A stretch of DNA of 21,567 nt, from positions 1-21,567 of IMG/VR virus record IMGVR_UViG_3300014720_000219. The stretch is one strand, 5' to 3'. Below, in pieces: positions 369 through 17,110 of the stretch. Source of the stretch: a virus. The position numbers and the translations under genes were made by a program. The stretch's first letter is position 1. Every line of letters starts with the position of its first letter. Below the pieces are notes generated by a model. It saw nothing but the letters and a program-made list of their open reading frames with translations, did no database searches and was not told the DNA's origin.

Positions 369-1007
369 ATGGCATATAGTCGTGGAACATCGACCAACAT
401 TATCGTTGGTGCTGCAGCACTTTTTATTGCAGACACAACTTTAACTCCAGCAACACTGGAATCATTTGACACTGAAGAGTCATTCAAGGAAACCCTTGCT
501 GATGATGCAGATTATACAAATGTAGGTTATACCATGAATGGTCTTGAATTACAGTTCCAACCAGACTTCGGTGAAGTACAGGTTGACCAAATTCTTGACG
601 TTGCTAAACTTTATAAGCAAGGTATGCAAGTAAATCTTGCAACTGCTTTTGCTGAGGCTACCCTTGAGAACCTTCTTTTGGCTCTAGCATTTAACTCAGA
701 CGAACTATCTGGAACAAAGGCATCTAACGCAGGACAGGTTTTAAACCTATCAGGTGGAGATATCGGCGAATGTCCAGTAGAGCGTGGAATTGTTGCAGTA
801 GGACCTGGTACAGGTGACTGCGTAGATTCTCCATTTGTGGAGCGTGTCTACACAGCATACCGTGCTTTGTCAATTGAAAACGTAACAGTTTCAGCAAAGC
901 GTGACGAGGCTTCAATGTTTGAAGTTTCATTCCGTTTGCTACCAGAAGATACTTCAGGTTCATATGGTAAGATCGTTGATCGTACCTTCGGAGACCTATT
1001 GTCTTAA
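369..1007 (+). CDS. Major tail protein (tail tube subunit)
   Basis: A 212-aa protein that should polymerise into the tail tube around the tape measure. I base this on its size, its place just before the chaperone and tape measure genes, and its composition: an N-terminal glycine/alanine segment (TNIIVGAAALFIAD), a middle part rich in acidic and aromatic residues (LELQFQPDFGEVQVDQ), and a beta-rich C-terminal end. The ATG at 369 has a good ribosome binding site, AAAGAGGTG, ending 5 bases upstream. All seven arginine codons are CGT, unlike most nearby genes, which fits high expression. The gene is isolated between its own promoter and a strong terminator, so it can be made in excess over the other tail proteins, as an abundant subunit requires. 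The family is inferred from memory of actinophage tail proteins; no catalytic motif is expected. Confidence 0.85.
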   Translation: MAYSRGTSTNIIVGAAALFIADTTLTPATLESFDTEESFKETLADDADYTNVGYTMNGLELQFQPDFGEVQVDQILDVAKLYKQGMQVNLATAFAEATLENLLLALAFNSDELSGTKASNAGQVLNLSGGDIGECPVERGIVAVGPGTGDCVDSPFVERVYTAYRALSIENVTVSAKRDEASMFEVSFRLLPEDTSGSYGKIVDRTFGDLLS

Positions 1008-1026
1008 TAGTTTTACTATTCAGCAT

Positions 1027-1060
1027 AGCCCATATCTTCGGATGTGGGCTTTGTTGTTTT
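1027..1060 (+). terminator. Intrinsic terminator after the major tail protein gene
   Basis: A 10-bp stem, AGCCCATATC (1027-1036) paired with GATGTGGGCT (1041-1050), has one G-U pair and a UUCG tetraloop (1037-1040), followed by TTGTTGTTTT (1051-1060). Stem, stable loop and T-rich tail are textbook for rho-independent termination. It starts 19 bases after the stop codon of the major tail protein and separates that gene from the chaperone/tape-measure genes. Confidence 0.9.
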
Positions 1061-1061
1061 A

Positions 1062-1070
1062 TGGTAAAAT
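1062..1070 (+). promoter_or_regulatory. Promoter-like motif giving a leaderless chaperone mRNA
   Basis: TGGTAAAAT matches TGnTATAAT with one change and starts 1 base after the T tract of the terminator. The gap to the ATG at 1080 is 9 bases, so transcription would begin at or a few bases before the start codon. No Shine-Dalgarno sequence lies between the motif and the ATG. A restart is needed here because a terminator immediately precedes the gene. Confidence 0.5.
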
Positions 1071-1079
1071 TGAATTTAT

Positions 1080-1775
1080 ATGGCAACTACAATATATAAT
1101 TCTCAAATAGTATATTTATTTGATGGTACGGAATTAGAAATAATACCATTAAAGATTAAGTACTTACGTGAATTTATGCAAACCTTTAAAGAAATAAAAA
1201 ATACAAAAAATGATGATGAAGCCATAGCCGTATTAGTTGAATGTGTGCGGGTATGTATGAAACAGTACTATCCGCCAATATCAAAAACTGTTGAAAACAT
1301 AGAAGATAACATAGATATGCCCACAATATATAAAGTATTAGATACTGCTGCTGGAATTAAGATTAATAAAAAATCAGAAGAGCCAGTTAAAGATCAGGCA
1401 TTAGATAGTGGTCAAACCTGGGAAAATTTAGATCTTGCAAAATTAGAGTCTGAGGTTTTTTTGCTCGGAATATGGAAAGACTATCAAGAACTAGAGACAT
1501 CTTTATCAATGCCAGAATTAATGGCAACCTTAGAGGTAAGTAGAGAATTAGATTATACAGAAAAGAAATTTATGGCTGCAATTCAAGGGGTAGATTTAGA
1601 TAAAGAAACAAATAAGAGTAAAGGTCAAAAAGAATGGGAAGATATGAAAGCCAGAGTATTTAGTAAAGGCAAAACAAATGATAGTAATGATGTTTTAGCA
1701 CTACAAGGTGTTAATGCCCAGAAAGTAGGGTTTGGTATCGGCATGGGATTAGAATACGAAGACCTAACAAAATAG
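1080..1775 (+). CDS. Long tail assembly chaperone (G and T parts fused in one frame)
   Basis: A 231-aa protein with two parts. Residues 1-95 align with the whole chaperone domain of the short paralogue at 1821-2153, with a single one-residue gap (shared MATT start, DGT, PLKI, LR-FM, EC, SK, PT-YK). Residues about 114-231 look like the downstream part of frameshifted chaperones of actinophages (SEVFLLGIWKDYQELETS, MPELMATL, EKKFMAAIQGVDLD, GFGIGMGLEYE). In most relatives this second part is reached only by a programmed frameshift; here the frame is continuous. A run of six A at 1368-1373 encodes Lys97-Lys98 exactly at the junction. The protein should bind the tape measure and recruit tail tube subunits, and is normally absent from the finished virion. 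The start has no ribosome binding site and may be leaderless. Arginine codons are mixed (one CGT, one CGG, two AGA), unlike the short copy. Confidence 0.8.
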   Translation: MATTIYNSQIVYLFDGTELEIIPLKIKYLREFMQTFKEIKNTKNDDEAIAVLVECVRVCMKQYYPPISKTVENIEDNIDMPTIYKVLDTAAGIKINKKSEEPVKDQALDSGQTWENLDLAKLESEVFLLGIWKDYQELETSLSMPELMATLEVSRELDYTEKKFMAAIQGVDLDKETNKSKGQKEWEDMKARVFSKGKTNDSNDVLALQGVNAQKVGFGIGMGLEYEDLTK

Positions 1776-1810
1776 CCTGTTTATGCTATAATTGACATAG
1801 CCTATATAGG
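1772..1810. repeat. Direct repeats and palindrome around the short-chaperone promoter
   Basis: ATAGCCT occurs at 1772-1778 and again at 1797-1803, flanking the -10 motif; GCTAT at 1785-1789 is an inverted match to ATAGC at 1772-1776. A perfect 10-base palindrome, CCTATATAGG, lies at 1801-1810, just after the predicted start of transcription, and runs into the AGGAGG ribosome binding site. The arrangement resembles an operator, but repeats this short can arise by chance in AT-rich DNA. Confidence 0.3.
1784..1792 (+). promoter_or_regulatory. Extended -10 promoter of the short chaperone / tape measure operon
   Basis: TGCTATAAT is a perfect extended -10 in the 45-base gap between the two chaperone genes. 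Initiation near 1799 would leave a leader of about 20 bases with an AGGAGG ribosome binding site (1808-1813) before the ATG at 1821. No convincing -35 is present. This promoter should also supply the tape measure and tail-tip genes downstream, since no terminator is seen before 16649. Confidence 0.6.
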
Positions 1811-1820
1811 AGGATACACA

Positions 1821-2153
1821 ATGGCAACAACAGTACATGAGGGCACAGAACTTACTCTCATTGATGGCACAAAAATCAAGGTACGTCCACTTAAGATTTC
1901 CTTGCTTCGTCCATTTATGAAAAAGTTTGAGCAGGTAGCAGGGGTGGCAGAAGATAATGAAAAGTCAATGACTCTTCTTATTGAATGCGTACAGATTGCT
2001 ATGGAGCAGTACAGTCCAGACTTGTCTAAAGAGATTAGTAAACTAGAAGACGTTTTAGACCTTCCAACAGTTTACAAAATTATTGAAGCCGCTTCTGGAG
2101 TTAAGTTAGCAGATGCAAACGCTCTTCTAAACACAGTGCTTGCAAACAATTAA
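1821..2153 (+). CDS. Short tail assembly chaperone, paralogue of the preceding gene
   Basis: A 110-aa protein that corresponds to the N-terminal (gpG-like) half of the long chaperone, with conserved positions such as LIDGT, RPLKI, LLRPFM, LIECVQIAMEQY, DLPTVYKII and ASGVKL, then a short C-terminal tail. It has no second part: 22 bases after its stop the tape measure gene begins, so no frameshift extension can be encoded here. It has a strong ribosome binding site (AGGAGG, 7 bases from the ATG) and its own extended -10 promoter. Both arginine codons are CGT, as in the major tail protein. These features predict that it is made in larger amounts than the long form, as the short form is in phages that use frameshifting. 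It should coat the tape measure protein during tail assembly. Confidence 0.8.
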   Translation: MATTVHEGTELTLIDGTKIKVRPLKISLLRPFMKKFEQVAGVAEDNEKSMTLLIECVQIAMEQYSPDLSKEISKLEDVLDLPTVYKIIEAASGVKLADANALLNTVLANN

Positions 2154-2175: not shown

Positions 2176-5100
2176 ATGGCTGACGTAAATGCTAATATTG
2201 GCGTACAAATTGATACGTCAGCGGCATTGGCAGAACTTAAAAATCTTCAACGTCAGTTAGCAAACTTTCATTCATCAGTGTCAAAAAGCAGCGCTGCTGC
2301 TGCAATGGCACAAAAAGGTTTACAAACCAATCTTTTAAATGCGATAAATGCAACGGGTAAATTCCGTGCACAAATGGGGTTAGTAAGAACCTCAACAGAA
2401 TCATTTACTCACGCACTGGAGACAAACAAACTCTCTATGCGTGAGTATTTCCGTTATGCAGGCGGATCTACAAGAACATTTGGAAGATTATTTAAACAAG
2501 AGTTTAACACGATTGGCAAGGTAGCCGAAGAGCGTGTTAAGAAAATGCAGACCCAATATATTAAGATGGGTCGTGATGCATCTGGAGCAATGAAGGCAAT
2601 TGCAATAACTCCAAATACATTAAATATGAAGGAATACTCCACACAGTTGGCGGTAGCAGCACAAAAACAAGCATTGCTTAATCAATTATTAAAACAAGGA
2701 TCTACCAATCTTTTAAACTTTGGTAAAAATACACAATGGGCAGGACGCCAACTTATGGTTGGTTTTACAATACCGCTTGCTTATTTTGGTACTGCTGCTG
2801 CTAAAACATTTATGGACCTTGAAAAACAGGCTATTAGATTTAAGCGTGTTTATGGAGATATGTTTACAACTACTGATGAAACAAATAAAGCGTTGGCTGA
2901 TATACAACAACTTGCCGAAGAGTTTACAAAATATGGCGTTGCCGTTGTCGATACTATAGAAATGGCAGCAAATGCTGCTGCAATGGGTAAAACAGGAGCA
3001 GAACTTACAGCCCAAGTAGCACAAGCAACACGTCTTGCAGTTCTTGGTGGAGTAGAACAAGCACAGGCATTAGAAACAACAATTTCTGTAACAAATGCTT
3101 TTGGCATAGCAGCAGATGAATTAGCAAATAAAATTAACTTTCTTAACGCAGTTGAAAACCAAACCGTAGTATCTATTGAAGATTTAACAATTGCAATTCC
3201 TAAAGCAGGACCAGTTGTTAAACAACTTGGCGGATCGGTTGAAGATTTAGCATTTTTCTTAACTGCCATGAAAGAAGGCGGTATTAATGCATCAGAGGGT
3301 GCTAACGCACTTAAGTCTGGTCTTGCATCATTAATTAATCCAACAGATAAAGCATCAAAAATGCTTGCTGGTATGGGAATTAATATTAAAGCAATAGTTG
3401 AAGGAAATGCTGGAAATATTAGAGAAACAGTTATAGATTTTGCTCAAGCCTTAGACACACTAGATCCACTTAATCGTGCTAGAGCAATTGAGCAATTGTT
3501 TGGTAAGTTCCAGTTTTCAAGATTATCAACTCTATTTCAAAACGTAACAAAAGACGGAACACAGGCTGCAAGAGTATTAGAACTTGCAGGGGCATCAATT
3601 GAAGAACTTGCTATATTATCTGAACGAGAATTAGGTGTATTAGAAGATGCTATTGGAACTGATTTTAGAGAATCAGTTGAAAAACTTAAACTTGCTATAG
3701 CACCAATAGGAAAAACATTTTTAGAAGCAGTAACGCCAATTGTTAAGGTAATTGGTAGATTATTAGAAAAGTTTAATAATCTTGGAGATGGCACAAAGAA
3801 ATTCCTTGTTGTAGCAACAACACTTGTTGGAGTAATTGGTCCAGTATTGTTGATGACATTTGGTTTACTTGCTAATGGTGTTGCAAATATAATTAAATTG
3901 TTCATAACAATGCGTTCTGGATTTTTAAGGGCAGGGACAAATACAAACCTTCTTGCACAACAAACTCAGTATTTAAATAGTGAACAACTAGAAGCAGCCA
4001 CAGTAGCAGCATCATTAAACCAAGCCCACACCCGTTTAACACAATCCTTTTCAGCAGAAACAACAGCAGTAAGATTATTACGTCAAGCATACATTGATGC
4101 AACAATAGCGGCAACAAACTTTGCAAGAGCAAATCCTGGAATGATGATGCCAGGTGGAAAATTTAGTCCACCCAAGAAATTTGCAAGAGGTGTAACTGAA
4201 GTTCCAGGAAGTGGAAATAAAGATACAGTTGCTTCTATGCTTACTCCTGGAGAAGCAGTAATTCCTGCACCAGTTGCACAAGATGATAGATTTAAACCAT
4301 TAATTGCAGCACTTGTATCTGGAGAAATTAAACAATATAAAAAGGGTGTAACTAGTGCTGGAGATGATTATGCACATGTTGGTGGAATGAAAAATATGGA
4401 TATTGATAAATTATTACAAGATCCAAGAATTAGTGCATTAGAAAAACAAAAACTTGCAACATATAGACAAATTTTAATTTCACAAGGAAAGCCTACAATA
4501 ATACCATCTTATGGATCACTAGCCTATTCATTTGATCCAGCATTAAATAAGGCTATGGCAAAAGGAGGGGTTCCATTTTCATCATTTGAAGCGGCTTGGA
4601 CTAGTCGTGGTCCAGATAAATGGATATCTTCAAATATTCCTGCATCTCAAGCCAGTGTAGTTGATAGCGCTATACTCAAACAAATAAAGGCTTCTGGCGT
4701 TACAAAAGTAACTGATGCAATGGTAGATCAAGCATTTAAAAATCTTCCACCAGAAATTAAATCAAGTTCTGGATATACACAAATGTCTGCATTACATTCA
4801 CAGTTAGGATCTTATGGAATTGGAAGAGGTTTAGGGTCTAATCCTAAAACTTCTGAAGCCATTTTACAAGAAGCCAAGAAAAAGGGTTATATAAAAGATT
4901 ATAAAATTGAAACAAGAACTACAAGCAAGGGGACTTTAGGAACTAAATCAATTATTATTACAAACTTAGATGGAACTCAAGTAAATCTTGGTAGGGGATC
5001 AAAAACAAATAGACAATATATTTCTGATACACAAGATACAAGAAGAAAATCTGGAATTATAACAGGTCAAAGCAGTAGAGCAAAATCTCCAGCACTTAGT

Positions 5101-8100
5101 GTCGTTGGTGGTGGATCAAGTGATGTAAGACAAGTTGCAGTTGGTAAAAACGAATCAATTCTTAATAAAAAAACAACTTCGACGCTTCGTTCTGGTAAAT
5201 CAGTTTTTGTTCCAGGAATGGGAAGACTTGGACTTATTGGTGCAGATGATGGAATACCAGGAGGACAAACACGGGCTGGTGTAAGAAATATACCTTTCTC
5301 AAGTGCTTCAGGTATGCGTGTTCCAGAGTCACAAATGAATAGGCTAATTGAGTCATTAGATAAGAATACAAAAGTAACAGATGACGGAACACAAACAACA
5401 ACTAAATTAGCTAAAGAACAAAAGCGTGAAGTAAGAGCACAACGTGCAGGAGCAGTAGGAAGAGTTGCTGGTCCCGTGGCTGGAATTGCAGGTATTGGAG
5501 CAATGGCAGGATTTATGACTGGCAACAATAATATAGGTATGGCAATGATGGGTATTTCTGCTCTTGCAACTATTGCCCCTATGCTTACAAATCCATTAGG
5601 TTTATTTGTTGCTGGATTAGTTGCAGTAACAGCCATGATTTGGAAAATGAATAGAGATGTAGAAAAGGCTAGACAAGAGGGAGTTAATCTTGCCAAGTCT
5701 ATGAATATGACATCTGAAAAATTAAAAAATCTTTCAGTTATAACTAATACCGTAAGTGCTACAGAGGCTGCAGATAGAAGACGTCAAACCACATTAACTG
5801 GACAAAGTGCTGTACAAAGAAAATTTGGTCAAAATGTACTTGGTAGCGATTTTGGTAAAGGTTTAATTGCAGATATTGAAAAACAAGCCAAGGTTGGTCA
5901 AAGTGTTCAACAAATTGGAGAAAACCTTTCTAATAGTCTTGCTTATGCAATTGTTCAAGGCGTAGTTACAACAGAGCAAGCAAGAAGCATTGCAGCAGCA
6001 CTTGGACAAGAATTACAAAGTTATGAAATACCAGCAATTGTTAGTGGAAAACTTACAACACTTCTTGGACCAAATGGAGAAAACTTAGCCACAGACCCAC
6101 TTCAGGTTACACTTGCAATTCAAGAAGAGTCTATGCAAAAACAGGCTGATTTCTTTAAAACCGCTTTAGAAAACATACAACCAACTGGATTTAACTCTAC
6201 GGCAACAATACTTGGAGCAACGGGTGTTGGTGCAGCAGGAGGCGCTGCAATTGGCTCAACAGCCTTTGGTATTGGTGCAATACCAGGTGCAATTTTAGGG
6301 GGTACTGTAGGTGCTATTGGTGGAATAGGCGCTGCCTATAGTATGAAAGGACCAAAAGAAGAAAACGCTAAACTTGGTGCAGCAGCGCTACAACTTGGAT
6401 TAGAACAAGTAACTATGAACAATGGTTTAGTAGATGCACTTAATAAACAATATGATATTAAAGTTAAAATGGCTAAAACAGATGCAGAAATTAAAAAAAT
6501 TGAAGAAGAAAGAAAGAGTGCATTAGATACATTAAACGCAAAAAATGCAGAAGCCTTAAAACTTCTTATTTCACAAAAAGATGCTTTTGGTCCAGATATA
6601 TTTAAAAAAGGAATTGATGCAGCAGTAAACTCTTTATACAAAGAGGGACCAATGAAAGTCTTTGCTGACCAAGCAATTAAAGATTTAGAAGGTATTACTA
6701 ACTCAGACTTTAAAGCATTTGTTCAAATTGAATTTGCTAGTGGATCACTTGATCCAGTTACTGTATCTAAACTTGCAAAAAATAAAGAACTTCAAACAAA
6801 ATTTACATTACTTGCTGAACAAAAAGGTAGTGAAAATGCAAATATGATTCTACAACTTCTTATGAAGTCTGGAGTGTCAGATACTAATCTTCCTATCTTT
6901 ATGGACATTATAAATAATGATCCAAAGAATTTTGACAAAAATTTAAAGGCAATTGAAGTTATTTCTAATATGGAACAAAAATATGGAATTAGACTTGATT
7001 TAAACACTAATGGAGAAAAAAAATTCGAGGCTACTAAAAAAATACTTGATGATTTAGTAGGAATGCCAGAAGAAATTACAAAAGATGGTTTACTTGACCT
7101 TAAGGTGAAAGATCCAAAAACATATAATGCGATTATGGCTAACTGGAATACTCTTGTTGGAACTTCCGATACAATAAATAGAACAGTAATAATTGATTTT
7201 GTTACATCACAAGATGACAATGTATTAATGCAATATTTAACTACAAAAGGTTTAACCAACCTACCATATTCAATGCAATATCTTCGTGCTAGATATGGGG
7301 AAGAGGCAGCAGCCTGGAATGTTGGAAGACAGGGTAAAATTAAAAATAAAATACCAGGAGACGAAGATGATAGCAGTAGTGGTGGTAAAGAAGACACCAC
7401 ACTTAATGAACTTTTAAAGAAATTAAAATTAACAAGAGATGCAAGCATAAATGCTCAAGGCGGACTAAAAGAACTTAGAAGAGTAATGAAAAATGCTGGT
7501 GGAGATCTTAAAGTATTTAATGGACTTAACCAAGCCCTTGCAAAAATGGGTGCAGAAAGTGATTTTATTAATTTTATTGGTGGAATGGATAATGCTTTAG
7601 AAGCAGCCTATGTAAACGCCGACAAACTTAAACAAGGAATTATAGAATTAACTGATGACGGAATACTTGCAATGAAGGCTTATCAAGAGGCTCAAATAGG
7701 TGCATTTAGTGTTACCGCTGCTTTAGGAATTACAGAAACCATCAAACAAAGAGATGCTTTTGTAAAATTAACTGCCGCTGGAGTTTCTGCAGCAGATGCA
7801 TTAGAAATGATGGCAGATTCAAACTTTATGCTTTCTATTGCTCAAAGAGCGGGAACAGAAGAAGTTAAAGACCTTATTGAGCAATATAATTTATTAAAGT
7901 CAACAGTTAAAACGACACAAGATATAATAAACCCAGAAAAAAGTTTTAAAGATTTAATGGATGAAAATATGAAATATTATGATTTTCTTGAAAGAGAAGC
8001 CAGAGCACAATATGAACCACAAATTGAATCATTAAATAAATTAATAGATACTAATGAAAGATTAATTGATGTGCAGCAAAGAGTTATTGAAGAAAACTAT

Positions 8101-9273
8101 GATCGTCCTATTGCATTATTAAATCAACAAACTACTTTATTAAATCAAGATTTAAATTTAATTGATAAAGCCGCTGAGTCAATTAATAAAAAATATGATG
8201 AGCAAGAAAAGGCATTGCAAAAAATATCTGATATTCAAGATGAAATTGCAAATAAAGAAAAGGGAAGAATTACAATTGCAGATGCTTTAACACGAGGCGA
8301 TATATCTGCAGCAGCAAAGGCTATTCAAGAAGAACGACAGGCAGCAGCAAAAAGGGCACAAGAAAGAAGTTCTAATTTATTACAGGTGGCAAGAGAAAAA
8401 GAACTTGCAGGATTAAGAAGTTCTAGTGGATTAACAAGAGCACAAATTGAAGAAAAGATATATGGAATAAGTCAGCAAATTTTTAAACTAGAACAAGATA
8501 AATTACCAATTGTTACAAAAATTCAAGAACTTAATGATGCAAACTATAACATTCAGGTAAAACAATTACAGCCACTTAAAGATGAATTACAAACAAGAAT
8601 TAATAATATTAATGCTGCAAGAACAGCCTGGGAAAGCCAAATGCTTGCTATTGAAAAAGCAAAATATGAGGCAAGCGGATATAATAAAATTTTAGAACTT
8701 GGTGAAGGTATACTTAAAAGAATTAAGGCATTATGGGATTCTTTAACTGCTAAGGCTGCCGATGCTGCTGTAATAAAGGTAGTGCAGCAAAAGACTGAAA
8801 CAGTAGGATTTGATGAACATATTGCAACGAAGTCTATTTTGGCTAAGGCAAATAAAGAATATTTTGAAAAACAAATATTTCCTAAAGTTGAGTCTGGTAG
8901 TCTTGGTGGCAGCGAACTCTTAGACTATGCAAAGGCATTTACTCAGGCTTATGGTACAAAATATATGCCGTATGCAACTGGTGGCATGGTTCCTAAATAT
9001 TATGTTTCAGGAGGATATTCTAGAGGTACCGACACAATTCCAGCGATGCTTACTCCTGGAGAATTTGTTGTTCGTAAAAATGCTGTTGATTCATTTGGAG
9101 TAAATAATCTTAATAAAATAAATGATGGTTTACATGGCGGATCTTCAGTGTATAATTATAATCTAAATGTTAATGTTAAATCTGAATCAAATCCAGACGA
9201 TATTGCAAGAACCGTTATGACTCAGATTAAACGAATTGATAACCAAAGAATTAAGATACAAAGAGGAGCATAA
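2176..9273 (+). CDS. Tape measure protein (very long, TP901-type core)
   Basis: At 2365 aa it is the largest protein of the window; it sets tail length and is the scaffold for tube assembly. A TP901-like core spans roughly residues 170-560 (motifs WAGRQLMVGFTIPLAYFG, MKEGGINASEGANALKSG, LFGKFQFSRLSTLFQ). Three hydrophobic stretches lie at about 543-579, 1096-1158 and 1347-1389, the last very Gly/Ala-rich; such segments are thought to act when DNA crosses the host membrane. A linker with GDEDDSSSGGKED lies near 1730. A long charged coiled coil spans about 1937-2163. The motif TPGE occurs twice, in SMLTPGEAVIP (TPGE at 690) and AMLTPGEFVVRK (TPGE at 2293). No peptidase or lysozyme motif was found. 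The start ATG at 2176 has AAGAGGTG 7 bases upstream; an overlapping ATG at 2172 is out of frame. Arginine codons change from mainly CGT early on to almost only AGA in the middle. Confidence 0.93.
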   Translation: MADVNANIGVQIDTSAALAELKNLQRQLANFHSSVSKSSAAAAMAQKGLQTNLLNAINATGKFRAQMGLVRTSTESFTHALETNKLSMREYFRYAGGSTRTFGRLFKQEFNTIGKVAEERVKKMQTQYIKMGRDASGAMKAIAITPNTLNMKEYSTQLAVAAQKQALLNQLLKQGSTNLLNFGKNTQWAGRQLMVGFTIPLAYFGTAAAKTFMDLEKQAIRFKRVYGDMFTTTDETNKALADIQQLAEEFTKYGVAVVDTIEMAANAAAMGKTGAELTAQVAQATRLAVLGGVEQAQALETTISVTNAFGIAADELANKINFLNAVENQTVVSIEDLTIAIPKAGPVVKQLGGSVEDLAFFLTAMKEGGINASEGANALKSGLASLINPTDKASKMLAGMGINIKAIVEGNAGNIRETVIDFAQALDTLDPLNRARAIEQLFGKFQFSRLSTLFQNVTKDGTQAARVLELAGASIEELAILSERELGVLEDAIGTDFRESVEKLKLAIAPIGKTFLEAVTPIVKVIGRLLEKFNNLGDGTKKFLVVATTLVGVIGPVLLMTFGLLANGVANIIKLFITMRSGFLRAGTNTNLLAQQTQYLNSEQLEAATVAASLNQAHTRLTQSFSAETTAVRLLRQAYIDATIAATNFARANPGMMMPGGKFSPPKKFARGVTEVPGSGNKDTVASMLTPGEAVIPAPVAQDDRFKPLIAALVSGEIKQYKKGVTSAGDDYAHVGGMKNMDIDKLLQDPRISALEKQKLATYRQILISQGKPTIIPSYGSLAYSFDPALNKAMAKGGVPFSSFEAAWTSRGPDKWISSNIPASQASVVDSAILKQIKASGVTKVTDAMVDQAFKNLPPEIKSSSGYTQMSALHSQLGSYGIGRGLGSNPKTSEAILQEAKKKGYIKDYKIETRTTSKGTLGTKSIIITNLDGTQVNLGRGSKTNRQYISDTQDTRRKSGIITGQSSRAKSPALSVVGGGSSDVRQVAVGKNESILNKKTTSTLRSGKSVFVPGMGRLGLIGADDGIPGGQTRAGVRNIPFSSASGMRVPESQMNRLIESLDKNTKVTDDGTQTTTKLAKEQKREVRAQRAGAVGRVAGPVAGIAGIGAMAGFMTGNNNIGMAMMGISALATIAPMLTNPLGLFVAGLVAVTAMIWKMNRDVEKARQEGVNLAKSMNMTSEKLKNLSVITNTVSATEAADRRRQTTLTGQSAVQRKFGQNVLGSDFGKGLIADIEKQAKVGQSVQQIGENLSNSLAYAIVQGVVTTEQARSIAAALGQELQSYEIPAIVSGKLTTLLGPNGENLATDPLQVTLAIQEESMQKQADFFKTALENIQPTGFNSTATILGATGVGAAGGAAIGSTAFGIGAIPGAILGGTVGAIGGIGAAYSMKGPKEENAKLGAAALQLGLEQVTMNNGLVDALNKQYDIKVKMAKTDAEIKKIEEERKSALDTLNAKNAEALKLLISQKDAFGPDIFKKGIDAAVNSLYKEGPMKVFADQAIKDLEGITNSDFKAFVQIEFASGSLDPVTVSKLAKNKELQTKFTLLAEQKGSENANMILQLLMKSGVSDTNLPIFMDIINNDPKNFDKNLKAIEVISNMEQKYGIRLDLNTNGEKKFEATKKILDDLVGMPEEITKDGLLDLKVKDPKTYNAIMANWNTLVGTSDTINRTVIIDFVTSQDDNVLMQYLTTKGLTNLPYSMQYLRARYGEEAAAWNVGRQGKIKNKIPGDEDDSSSGGKEDTTLNELLKKLKLTRDASINAQGGLKELRRVMKNAGGDLKVFNGLNQALAKMGAESDFINFIGGMDNALEAAYVNADKLKQGIIELTDDGILAMKAYQEAQIGAFSVTAALGITETIKQRDAFVKLTAAGVSAADALEMMADSNFMLSIAQRAGTEEVKDLIEQYNLLKSTVKTTQDIINPEKSFKDLMDENMKYYDFLEREARAQYEPQIESLNKLIDTNERLIDVQQRVIEENYDRPIALLNQQTTLLNQDLNLIDKAAESINKKYDEQEKALQKISDIQDEIANKEKGRITIADALTRGDISAAAKAIQEERQAAAKRAQERSSNLLQVAREKELAGLRSSSGLTRAQIEEKIYGISQQIFKLEQDKLPIVTKIQELNDANYNIQVKQLQPLKDELQTRINNINAARTAWESQMLAIEKAKYEASGYNKILELGEGILKRIKALWDSLTAKAADAAVIKVVQQKTETVGFDEHIATKSILAKANKEYFEKQIFPKVESGSLGGSELLDYAKAFTQAYGTKYMPYATGGMVPKYYVSGGYSRGTDTIPAMLTPGEFVVRKNAVDSFGVNNLNKINDGLHGGSSVYNYNLNVNVKSESNPDDIARTVMTQIKRIDNQRIKIQRGA

Positions 9274-15900: not shown

Positions 15901-16649
15901 TGGCAGATCTAGGTATTAAAAAATATCGTCAACCATATATTAATCTTCCACCAATAAACAGCGAAACCGAAGGGTATTCATTAAGATATAGAGTTATTTC
16001 TGAAGATAGAAACAGAGTTTCTCACTGGTCCCCAATTTATTTAATTATTCCAGAATACACCTATGTTCCTGGCTCAATTGAATTTAATAGCGCAAATCAA
16101 GTATCAACCTTTACATGGGATCCAGTTACAATTTTAAAAAATAAAACAACAGTTTCTAACATTACAAATAAACAATTAACTAATGATTTAGCAACAATAA
16201 CAACTAGCACTGCTCACTATATGGTTGTAGGTGATTGGGTAACTATAGAAAATGTAGATTCTCCATTTAATGGAACATATAAAATAAATGCGGTAACTGC
16301 AGATACTTTTACATATTACAAAGATCATGGAAATATTGCATCTACTCCAGTAAGTCCTGCTGGAGCATATAAAACTAACTCATTTATTACAAATGCCCTA
16401 GCCTATGATATTTGGTTGCGTTGGGACAGAGGAGATAGCGGTGACTGGATATATAAAGAAAGAATTCAAACAACATCTGTATCCTATCCACATGCCAGTT
16501 TTTATACTATTGGTGGGGTAGTGCAAAATCAACCACCCAATAGACTTAGTATTGAAATATATTTAACTGGACAGCCAATTGCAAGATCAGACGGGGCTGC
16601 TGGAACACCATTTTTAAAAGTATATAGAATGCTAAACGAAACGATCTAA
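15900..16649 (+). CDS. Tail protein with beta-sandwich repeats
   Basis: A 249-aa protein whose ATG overlaps the previous stop (TAATG), with GGAG (15889-15892) 7 bases upstream. The text YSLRYRVISEDRNRVSHWSPIY near residues 26-47 is what a fibronectin type III-like strand pair looks like, and FTWDPVT and YDIWLRWDRGD repeat the pattern further on. An insert around residues 85-130 (ATITTSTAHYMVVGDWVTI, FNGTYKINAVTADTFTYYK) matches a short beta module common in phage tail proteins. It is probably an accessory tip or fibre protein. It is the last gene before the promoter at 16650, so it may end the tail operon, though no terminator is visible. Confidence 0.65.
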   Translation: MADLGIKKYRQPYINLPPINSETEGYSLRYRVISEDRNRVSHWSPIYLIIPEYTYVPGSIEFNSANQVSTFTWDPVTILKNKTTVSNITNKQLTNDLATITTSTAHYMVVGDWVTIENVDSPFNGTYKINAVTADTFTYYKDHGNIASTPVSPAGAYKTNSFITNALAYDIWLRWDRGDSGDWIYKERIQTTSVSYPHASFYTIGGVVQNQPPNRLSIEIYLTGQPIARSDGAAGTPFLKVYRMLNETI

Positions 16650-16658
16650 TGATATAAT
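16650..16658 (+). promoter_or_regulatory. Extended -10 promoter between tail operon and downstream genes
   Basis: TGATATAAT is a perfect extended -10 in a 17-base gap; its first base follows the stop codon of the upstream gene. It lies 8 bases from the ATG at 16667, so a transcript from here would begin at or within about 2 bases of the start codon. GGAG at 16659-16662 could serve translation only on longer read-through transcripts. No -35-like sequence is visible. Confidence 0.5.
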
Positions 16659-16666
16659 GGAGATAT

Positions 16667-17110
16667 ATGGCTAAATTACCGCTACCAGAACGAGGACAAC
16701 CATTAGATGTTACATACATCTATGAGTTAGTTAAGACTGTTAATGATTTGTCTACAGAGGTTTCCTCTGCAGCATATAATTTTACAAGCATTGATAACGG
16801 TCCATCAATTAAAGAAACTGTAAAAACATCAAATGCAAGAGTTGTTGGTGGATATGTAGAAATTTTTACAAACAGTATTGTAAGTGCGGGTAACGAAAGA
16901 GCATTTACTTATTCATTTCAAAATGACTTTAAATTCCCCCCAATAGTTACAGCAACAGCACTAAACATTGGAAATACTGAGGCTGGTCAAAATGTTACAG
17001 TTGTTTTGCAAAAGCCAACTACATCTAAGGTTGATGGGTTTGTAAGGTTTGGAGCCTCTGGAAATCTATCGCTTGCTGTTAATCTTATTGCCATTGGTAT
17101 TCCAAACTAA
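16667..17110 (+). CDS. Small tail/fibre protein with H-type lectin-like C-terminal part
   Basis: A 147-aa protein. Residues 1-35 form a short attachment segment (LPLPERGQPLDVTYIYELVKTVNDLSTEV) with helical heptad spacing, as in trimeric fibre stalks. Residues about 60-147 are beta-rich and carry FTYSFQNDFKFPPIVTATA followed by alternating strands (VTVVLQKPTT, GFVRFGASGNLSLAVNLIAIG). The FPP-V pattern recalls H-type lectin domains and phage fibre tips, so it may bind a host sugar. The resemblance is by eye. It lies at the end of the structural block, but behind its own promoter-like motif, so it may be expressed separately from the other tail genes. Confidence 0.6.
   Translation: MAKLPLPERGQPLDVTYIYELVKTVNDLSTEVSSAAYNFTSIDNGPSIKETVKTSNARVVGGYVEIFTNSIVSAGNERAFTYSFQNDFKFPPIVTATALNIGNTEAGQNVTVVLQKPTTSKVDGFVRFGASGNLSLAVNLIAIGIPN

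Follow-up and report, generated by a model that had tools for sequence, protein, structure and literature searches.

A tandem pair of long and short tail assembly chaperone genes that may take the place of ribosomal frameshifting in a group of uncultured phages

Most long-tailed bacterial viruses produce a short and a long tail assembly chaperone from one gene through an occasional ribosomal slip, and why phages keep frameshifting to set the chaperone ratio is a standing question. Frameshifting is widely conserved except in T4, and in lambda a gpG to gpGT ratio of 30:1 is needed for tail assembly (PMC5009743). The two protein families found in the locus described here, PHROGs 10504 (N domain) and 10474 (T domain), also occur in the Stanwilliamsviridae (Streptomyces phages Coruscant, EGole, Wakanda and Yaboi) and in Trinavirus-type Rhodococcus phages. 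As in our locus, they are encoded between the genes for the major tail protein and the tape measure protein, with a terminator and an extended -10 element upstream. Unlike our locus, these phages have a single N gene with a Shine-Dalgarno sequence (SD), the T part lies in the -1 frame, the long form needs a frameshift, and there is no second N gene.

The window, that is, the whole stretch of DNA analysed, is the 21567-base virus record IMGVR_UViG_3300014720_000219, from a single uncultured virus; all the features of its chaperone locus lie on the plus strand. The locus opens with the major tail protein gene (369..1007; PHROG 2175, E 2e-33), which was identified by this match and by a position homologous to that of annotated Stanwilliamsviridae major tail proteins. 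The next gene (1080..1775) specifies a protein of 231 aa in which an N domain (1080..1364) and a T domain (1419..1772; PHROG 10474, E 6e-17) are joined in a single frame, the latter corresponding, by alignment with the T ORFs of Stanwilliamsviridae, to what relatives encode in the -1 frame. Forty-five bases after it begins a 110-aa gene (1821..2153). BLASTP aligned residues 1-95 of the long protein with residues 1-96 of the short one (E 4e-30; 39/96 identical [41%] and 73% positive, with a single gap of one residue). Over the N domain both proteins match PHROG 10504, and only the long one matches PHROG 10474. The tape measure gene (2176..9273, 2365 aa) has its own SD, is preceded just 5' of its ATG by an in-frame stop codon, and probably lies on the mRNA of the short gene. 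The first-pass annotation had described an in-frame 231-aa gene followed by a 110-aa paralogue that aligns with its first 95 residues with a single one-residue gap, and this was right in every detail checked by BLASTP and against PHROGs; its placing of the tape measure gene 22 bases past the stop of the short gene was confirmed by the start at 2176.

We suggest that the pair serves a long-tailed phage as its set of tail assembly chaperones, with a GT-like long form encoded by the 231-aa gene and a G-like short form by the 110-aa gene. The pattern is that of G and GT, with an N-terminal domain common to both proteins and T present only in the long one. In Streptomyces phage Coruscant PHROGs 10504 and 10474 are the two chaperone ORFs, in different frames, and homology extends to 127 Streptomyces phage records, many of them annotated as tail assembly chaperone on the strength of position and frameshift. 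That the long gene might be an unrelated protein, a reservation expressed when the locus was first described, was rejected because it is homologous to both the G piece and the T piece found in Stanwilliamsviridae; its relatives are the frameshifted G/T chaperones of that family and of Trinavirus. A Pfam search matched the window proteins to no chaperone family, and a sequence search of solved structures returned only chance-level matches (E 0.2 or worse) to unrelated proteins. Similarly, a fold search with predicted models of both proteins (pLDDT about 79-80; the underlying alignments were made without rows from the phage record collection) found no PDB match at E 0.001, including the HK97 gp13 type. 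Because the predicted structures matched no solved chaperone, the assigned role rests on gene order, on homology to annotated frameshifted chaperones and on the frameshift itself. The host is presumably an actinobacterium, judging only from the isolate relatives; no prophage relatives were found in GTDB genomes.

Relatives were gathered by six scans of viral contigs and each was classed by tblastn and reading frame. How often a long in-frame form stands beside a short paralogue, a question raised with the first description of the locus, could thereby be answered for viral contigs: among 447 complete loci, that is, those with both flanking genes present, 290 carry the long gene (N and T in one frame) and then the short gene (N), 156 carry a lone N gene followed by T in the -1 frame, and the remaining locus is broken. 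That locus (L134) has a long gene of 133 aa interrupted in its T domain, with T then in another frame, through either a read error or decay. In all 447 loci, as in the window, the chaperone genes sit between the major tail protein and tape measure genes. The single-gene loci are those of Stanwilliamsviridae, Rhodococcus phages and environmental contigs. Loci with a long gene and no short one are contig-end cuts (seven checked; two more end within the long gene). Median dN/dS values are 0.13 for the long N domain, 0.07 for T and 0.14 for the short gene; both genes are under purifying selection.

In our judgment the locus as a whole is rather likely to be explained by one tandem duplication, of a chaperone gene read by -1 programmed frameshifting, that yielded an in-frame long gene and a short gene, with two modes of initiation taking the place of frameshifting. 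The upstream copy would have been fused in frame and would have lost its slippery site and SD; the downstream copy would have shed its T domain while retaining a promoter and SD of the ancestral type. Transcription from the major tail protein gene would stop at the terminator, uncoupling the chaperone genes from that mRNA. The long form would then come from a leaderless mRNA made at a separate, mostly sub-consensus promoter; the short form, and probably the tape measure protein as well, would depend on a strong SD and an extended -10 promoter that fits the consensus. The short form would probably be made in excess, as in lambda, with no frameshift, the two products acting as do lambda gpG and gpGT. 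At the sequence level the evidence consists of the two genes, the in-frame fusion, the loss of the conserved slippery site and two distinct, conserved sets of start signals; from these we infer how, and how strongly, the signals are used. The proposal of the first-pass annotation that duplication had created dedicated short and long genes agrees with the distribution found here, in that relatives frameshift and the two-gene loci keep an in-frame long gene together with a short one.

The differing start signals of the two genes provide what we regard as the strongest new evidence. Between the major tail protein and long genes of the window a terminator scan revealed a putative intrinsic terminator (AGCCCATATC-TTCG-GATGTGGGCT followed by a T-rich tail, 1027..1060; fold z-score -7.9), and among two-gene loci such a terminator is present in 133 of the 140 distinct gaps, against 3.6 in shuffled sequences. 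It is followed by a candidate extended -10 element, TGGTAAAAT (1062..1070), 9 bases 5' of the long ATG, which predicts a leaderless or nearly leaderless mRNA. This element is conserved as TGNTANNNT within 3-15 bases of the start, nearly always 5-9, in 135/140 distinct gaps (6 in shuffles); an SD-like sequence occurs in only 2/140. Since the predicted 5' UTR is 0-4 bases in 130/135 cases and the start codon is ATG in 140/140, the mRNA of the long gene is probably leaderless. Its hexamer is TATAAT in only 26/135, otherwise being mostly TAGAAT, TAAAAT, TATACT or TACAAT; the minority of long genes whose TATAAT equals the short gene's in strength counts against the ratio model.

The short gene of the window is preceded by its own predicted promoter, the extended -10 element TGCTATAAT (1784..1792), and by the SD AGGAGG (1808..1813). 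The consensus TGNTATAAT, perfect in the window, was found before the short gene in all 151 distinct sequences (about 1 in shuffles), and an SD-like sequence in 150 of them. After thinning at 82% identity the start-signal counts were 76/79 for the long gene and 83/83 for the short one. Among 29 single-gene relatives a terminator is present in 26, an extended -10 element placed for a leadered mRNA in 27 and an SD in 28; in a larger single-gene set the last two occur together in 93/100. The single-gene relatives thus look like the short gene, which has retained start signals of the ancestral kind; those of the long gene have changed.

Several further observations concern these signals. In L075, L076, L078, L130 and other loci the last codons of the long gene enter the -10 element of the short gene (CTT ATG CTA TAA T), so that promoter and long C-terminus share bases. 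In a different locus (L073) the long and short genes stand 172 bases apart; a recombination endonuclease VII, of which a remnant is encoded there (Pfam PF02945, 1e-10), was inserted immediately upstream of the promoter and SD of the short gene, both of which are intact; L106 appears to hold the same contig. In the RNA fold of window positions 1008-1072 (z -7.9) the -10 region of the long gene pairs, outside the terminator stem, with bases just after the major tail protein stop codon. Such pairing in a modelled read-through RNA might hide the start of the long gene, and it appears unconserved in other gaps. A third consensus extended -10 element, TGTTATAAT, lies at 299-307, 61 bases 5' of the major tail protein gene. 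Elsewhere in the window (16648-16670) the element TGATATAAT lies 8 bases before the ATG, at 16667, of a gene for a 147-aa protein with no Pfam match; because of this short distance that gene may be leaderless too.

If duplication has replaced frameshifting, the ratio of short to long form is probably set by the two promoters and the two initiation modes. The suggestion that promoters and start signals fix the ratio had been made in the first-pass annotation, and the conserved, different signals upstream of each gene speak for it. Mycobacteria can translate mRNAs that lack a leader about as robustly as those that have one (PMC4633059). In one study lower production rates were predicted for leaderless transcripts (PMC7148126). 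Start signals alone thus fix no ratio, and promoter strength may matter more than leader status.

Phylogenies bear upon the age of the duplication. In the N-domain tree the long copies form one group, and the short copies fall with the N domains of single-gene phages bearing the heptamer GGGAAAC (98/95 and 99/95); a further grouping of short copies with single genes gave a similar result. The T-domain tree has the single-gene phages diverging ahead of those with two genes, with the exception of the long-branched L192, and in the major tail protein tree the GGGAAAC phages are nested among two-gene phages. One duplication would explain the data, with a mild conflict among the trees over its order relative to the split from the GGGAAAC phages. 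The duplication might instead predate that split: fused and frameshifting copies would have coexisted, the lineage of the window losing the downstream T and the other lineage losing the fused copy and so arriving at pure frameshifting. The position of the GGGAAAC single genes beside the short copies and apart from the long ones, and the nesting in the major tail protein tree, both favor such a history. It requires more steps, however; the T tree leaves the GGGAAAC single-gene phages outside, and AU tests reject neither monophyly of the two-gene phages (major tail protein tree, p 0.43) nor a clade of long plus short copies (p 0.17). We hold the older date to be unlikely, if deserving of consideration. 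The C-terminal tails of the short copies do not align at the protein level, so the GGGAAAC heptamer could not be mapped onto them. In the trees of T and of the major tail protein, the single-gene GGGAAAC loci L192 and L193 sit on a long branch within the two-gene phages, and a return to frameshifting is possible in their case.

With regard to the slippery site, T lies in the -1 frame in all 83 distinct single-gene overlaps and an in-phase XXXYYYZ heptamer is present in 74 of them: GGGAAAC in the environmental phages nearest to the group of the window, and CCCAAAC or CCCAAAT in most others. The remaining nine are of the Coruscant/EGole/Yaboi type and have CCCGGAA at that place. Among the Boydwoodruffvirinae, the frameshifting relatives L162-L164, L166 and L172 lack a canonical XXXYYYZ in the overlap and have CCCGGAA where others have CCCAAAT; many records annotate T as a hypothetical protein of its own, and that of Faust gives it as a CDS of 60 bases. 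The annotation of Yaboi, NiceHouse and Francesca has a joined product. The single-gene relatives show the marks of a frameshifted gene, namely T out of frame with N and an overlap that holds a slippery site; the window does not. Judged by sequence, the fused long gene, which has no conserved heptamer, has lost the conserved slippery site. It could be argued that hidden frameshifting or slippage in the A-rich junction of the long gene (e.g., AATAAAAAATC in the window) still supplies part of the short form, the short gene merely topping it up, and in-phase heptamers do occur in 19 of 151 distinct long-gene junctions. These are of eight kinds, however, without conservation, and where relatives have GGGAAAC or CCCAAAT the long genes share no heptamer; scattered heptamers of this sort may be what is to be expected of A-rich DNA. 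We consider a contribution from hidden frameshifting very unlikely.

The two N domains have diverged. At twelve alignment columns, including one indel, the long and short copies are fixed for different states. In 94% of locus pairs it is the short copy that shows the greater conservation, the long copy evolving faster. The idea, put forward in the first-pass annotation, that the two domains could specialise is consistent with these observations and is made plausible by them, although they do not prove different functions. Tentatively, and with some doubt, we might go further and propose that the copies have divided the labour: the leadered short protein would only coat the tape measure, and the private N domain of the leaderless long protein would be tuned as a recruiter or initiator, stoichiometry and timing being governed by two promoters and two initiation modes rather than by recoding. 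An even greater divergence, in which the short gene has left chaperone work for another role and the long protein alone does that work, could draw upon the 41% identity of the N domains and their fixed differences. It is difficult to reconcile with the greater conservation of the short copy, with its place directly 5' of the tape measure gene in every complete two-gene locus, and with its having the length of an ancestral G and grouping with working single-gene N domains; we regard it as most improbable. Finally, although the window is one uncultured virus record, the chance that sequencing or assembly joined two frames, the error against which the first description had cautioned, or collapsed two phage variants into one contig is negligible, since some 300 loci retain the in-frame fusion (the long and short pair occurring in 305, with 174 distinct 600-base cores) and the copies differ at ~59% of residues and fall into separate clades.

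A large natural group, known only from metagenomes, seems to have given up frameshifting beside relatives which keep it, and the signals that seem to have taken over are visible in the DNA. Comparison of two-gene with frameshifting phages can show which features of G and GT matter: a fixed ratio, a shared N domain or coupled timing. It would also follow from the arrangement that two paralogues some 700 bases apart start differently, one leaderless and the other leadered.

Compared with known systems, the locus shares with lambda gpG/gpGT an N-terminal domain common to short and long forms; lambda uses one gene and a -1 frameshift, whereas the window has two genes. For the chaperones of some cluster EA Microbacterium phages, the description is of two ORFs akin to G and T rather than of a short paralogue next to a long fusion. 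T4 genes 26 and 51, which we take to be a short and long pair, are related (20% identity, E 2e-6; both PHROG 150). They lie on opposite strands whereas the genes of the window are in tandem, and the T4-like proteins belong to another family, with no PHROG in common with the window. We know of no close relative of the T4-like set that frameshifts, nor of a leaderless/leadered contrast within it. Some T4-like phages reportedly have a short gene together with a long one that is a fusion (Vladimirov et al. 2022, as described in PMC10885494), and from that description they resemble the window in having such a pair in place of frameshifting. Because of that report (PMC10885494) the principle of separate genes is already known. 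Among open-access texts we found no paper describing paired chaperones such as those of the window. What is new would be an independent case in another protein family, with tandem order, relatives that still frameshift and a conserved contrast between predicted leaderless and leadered starts.
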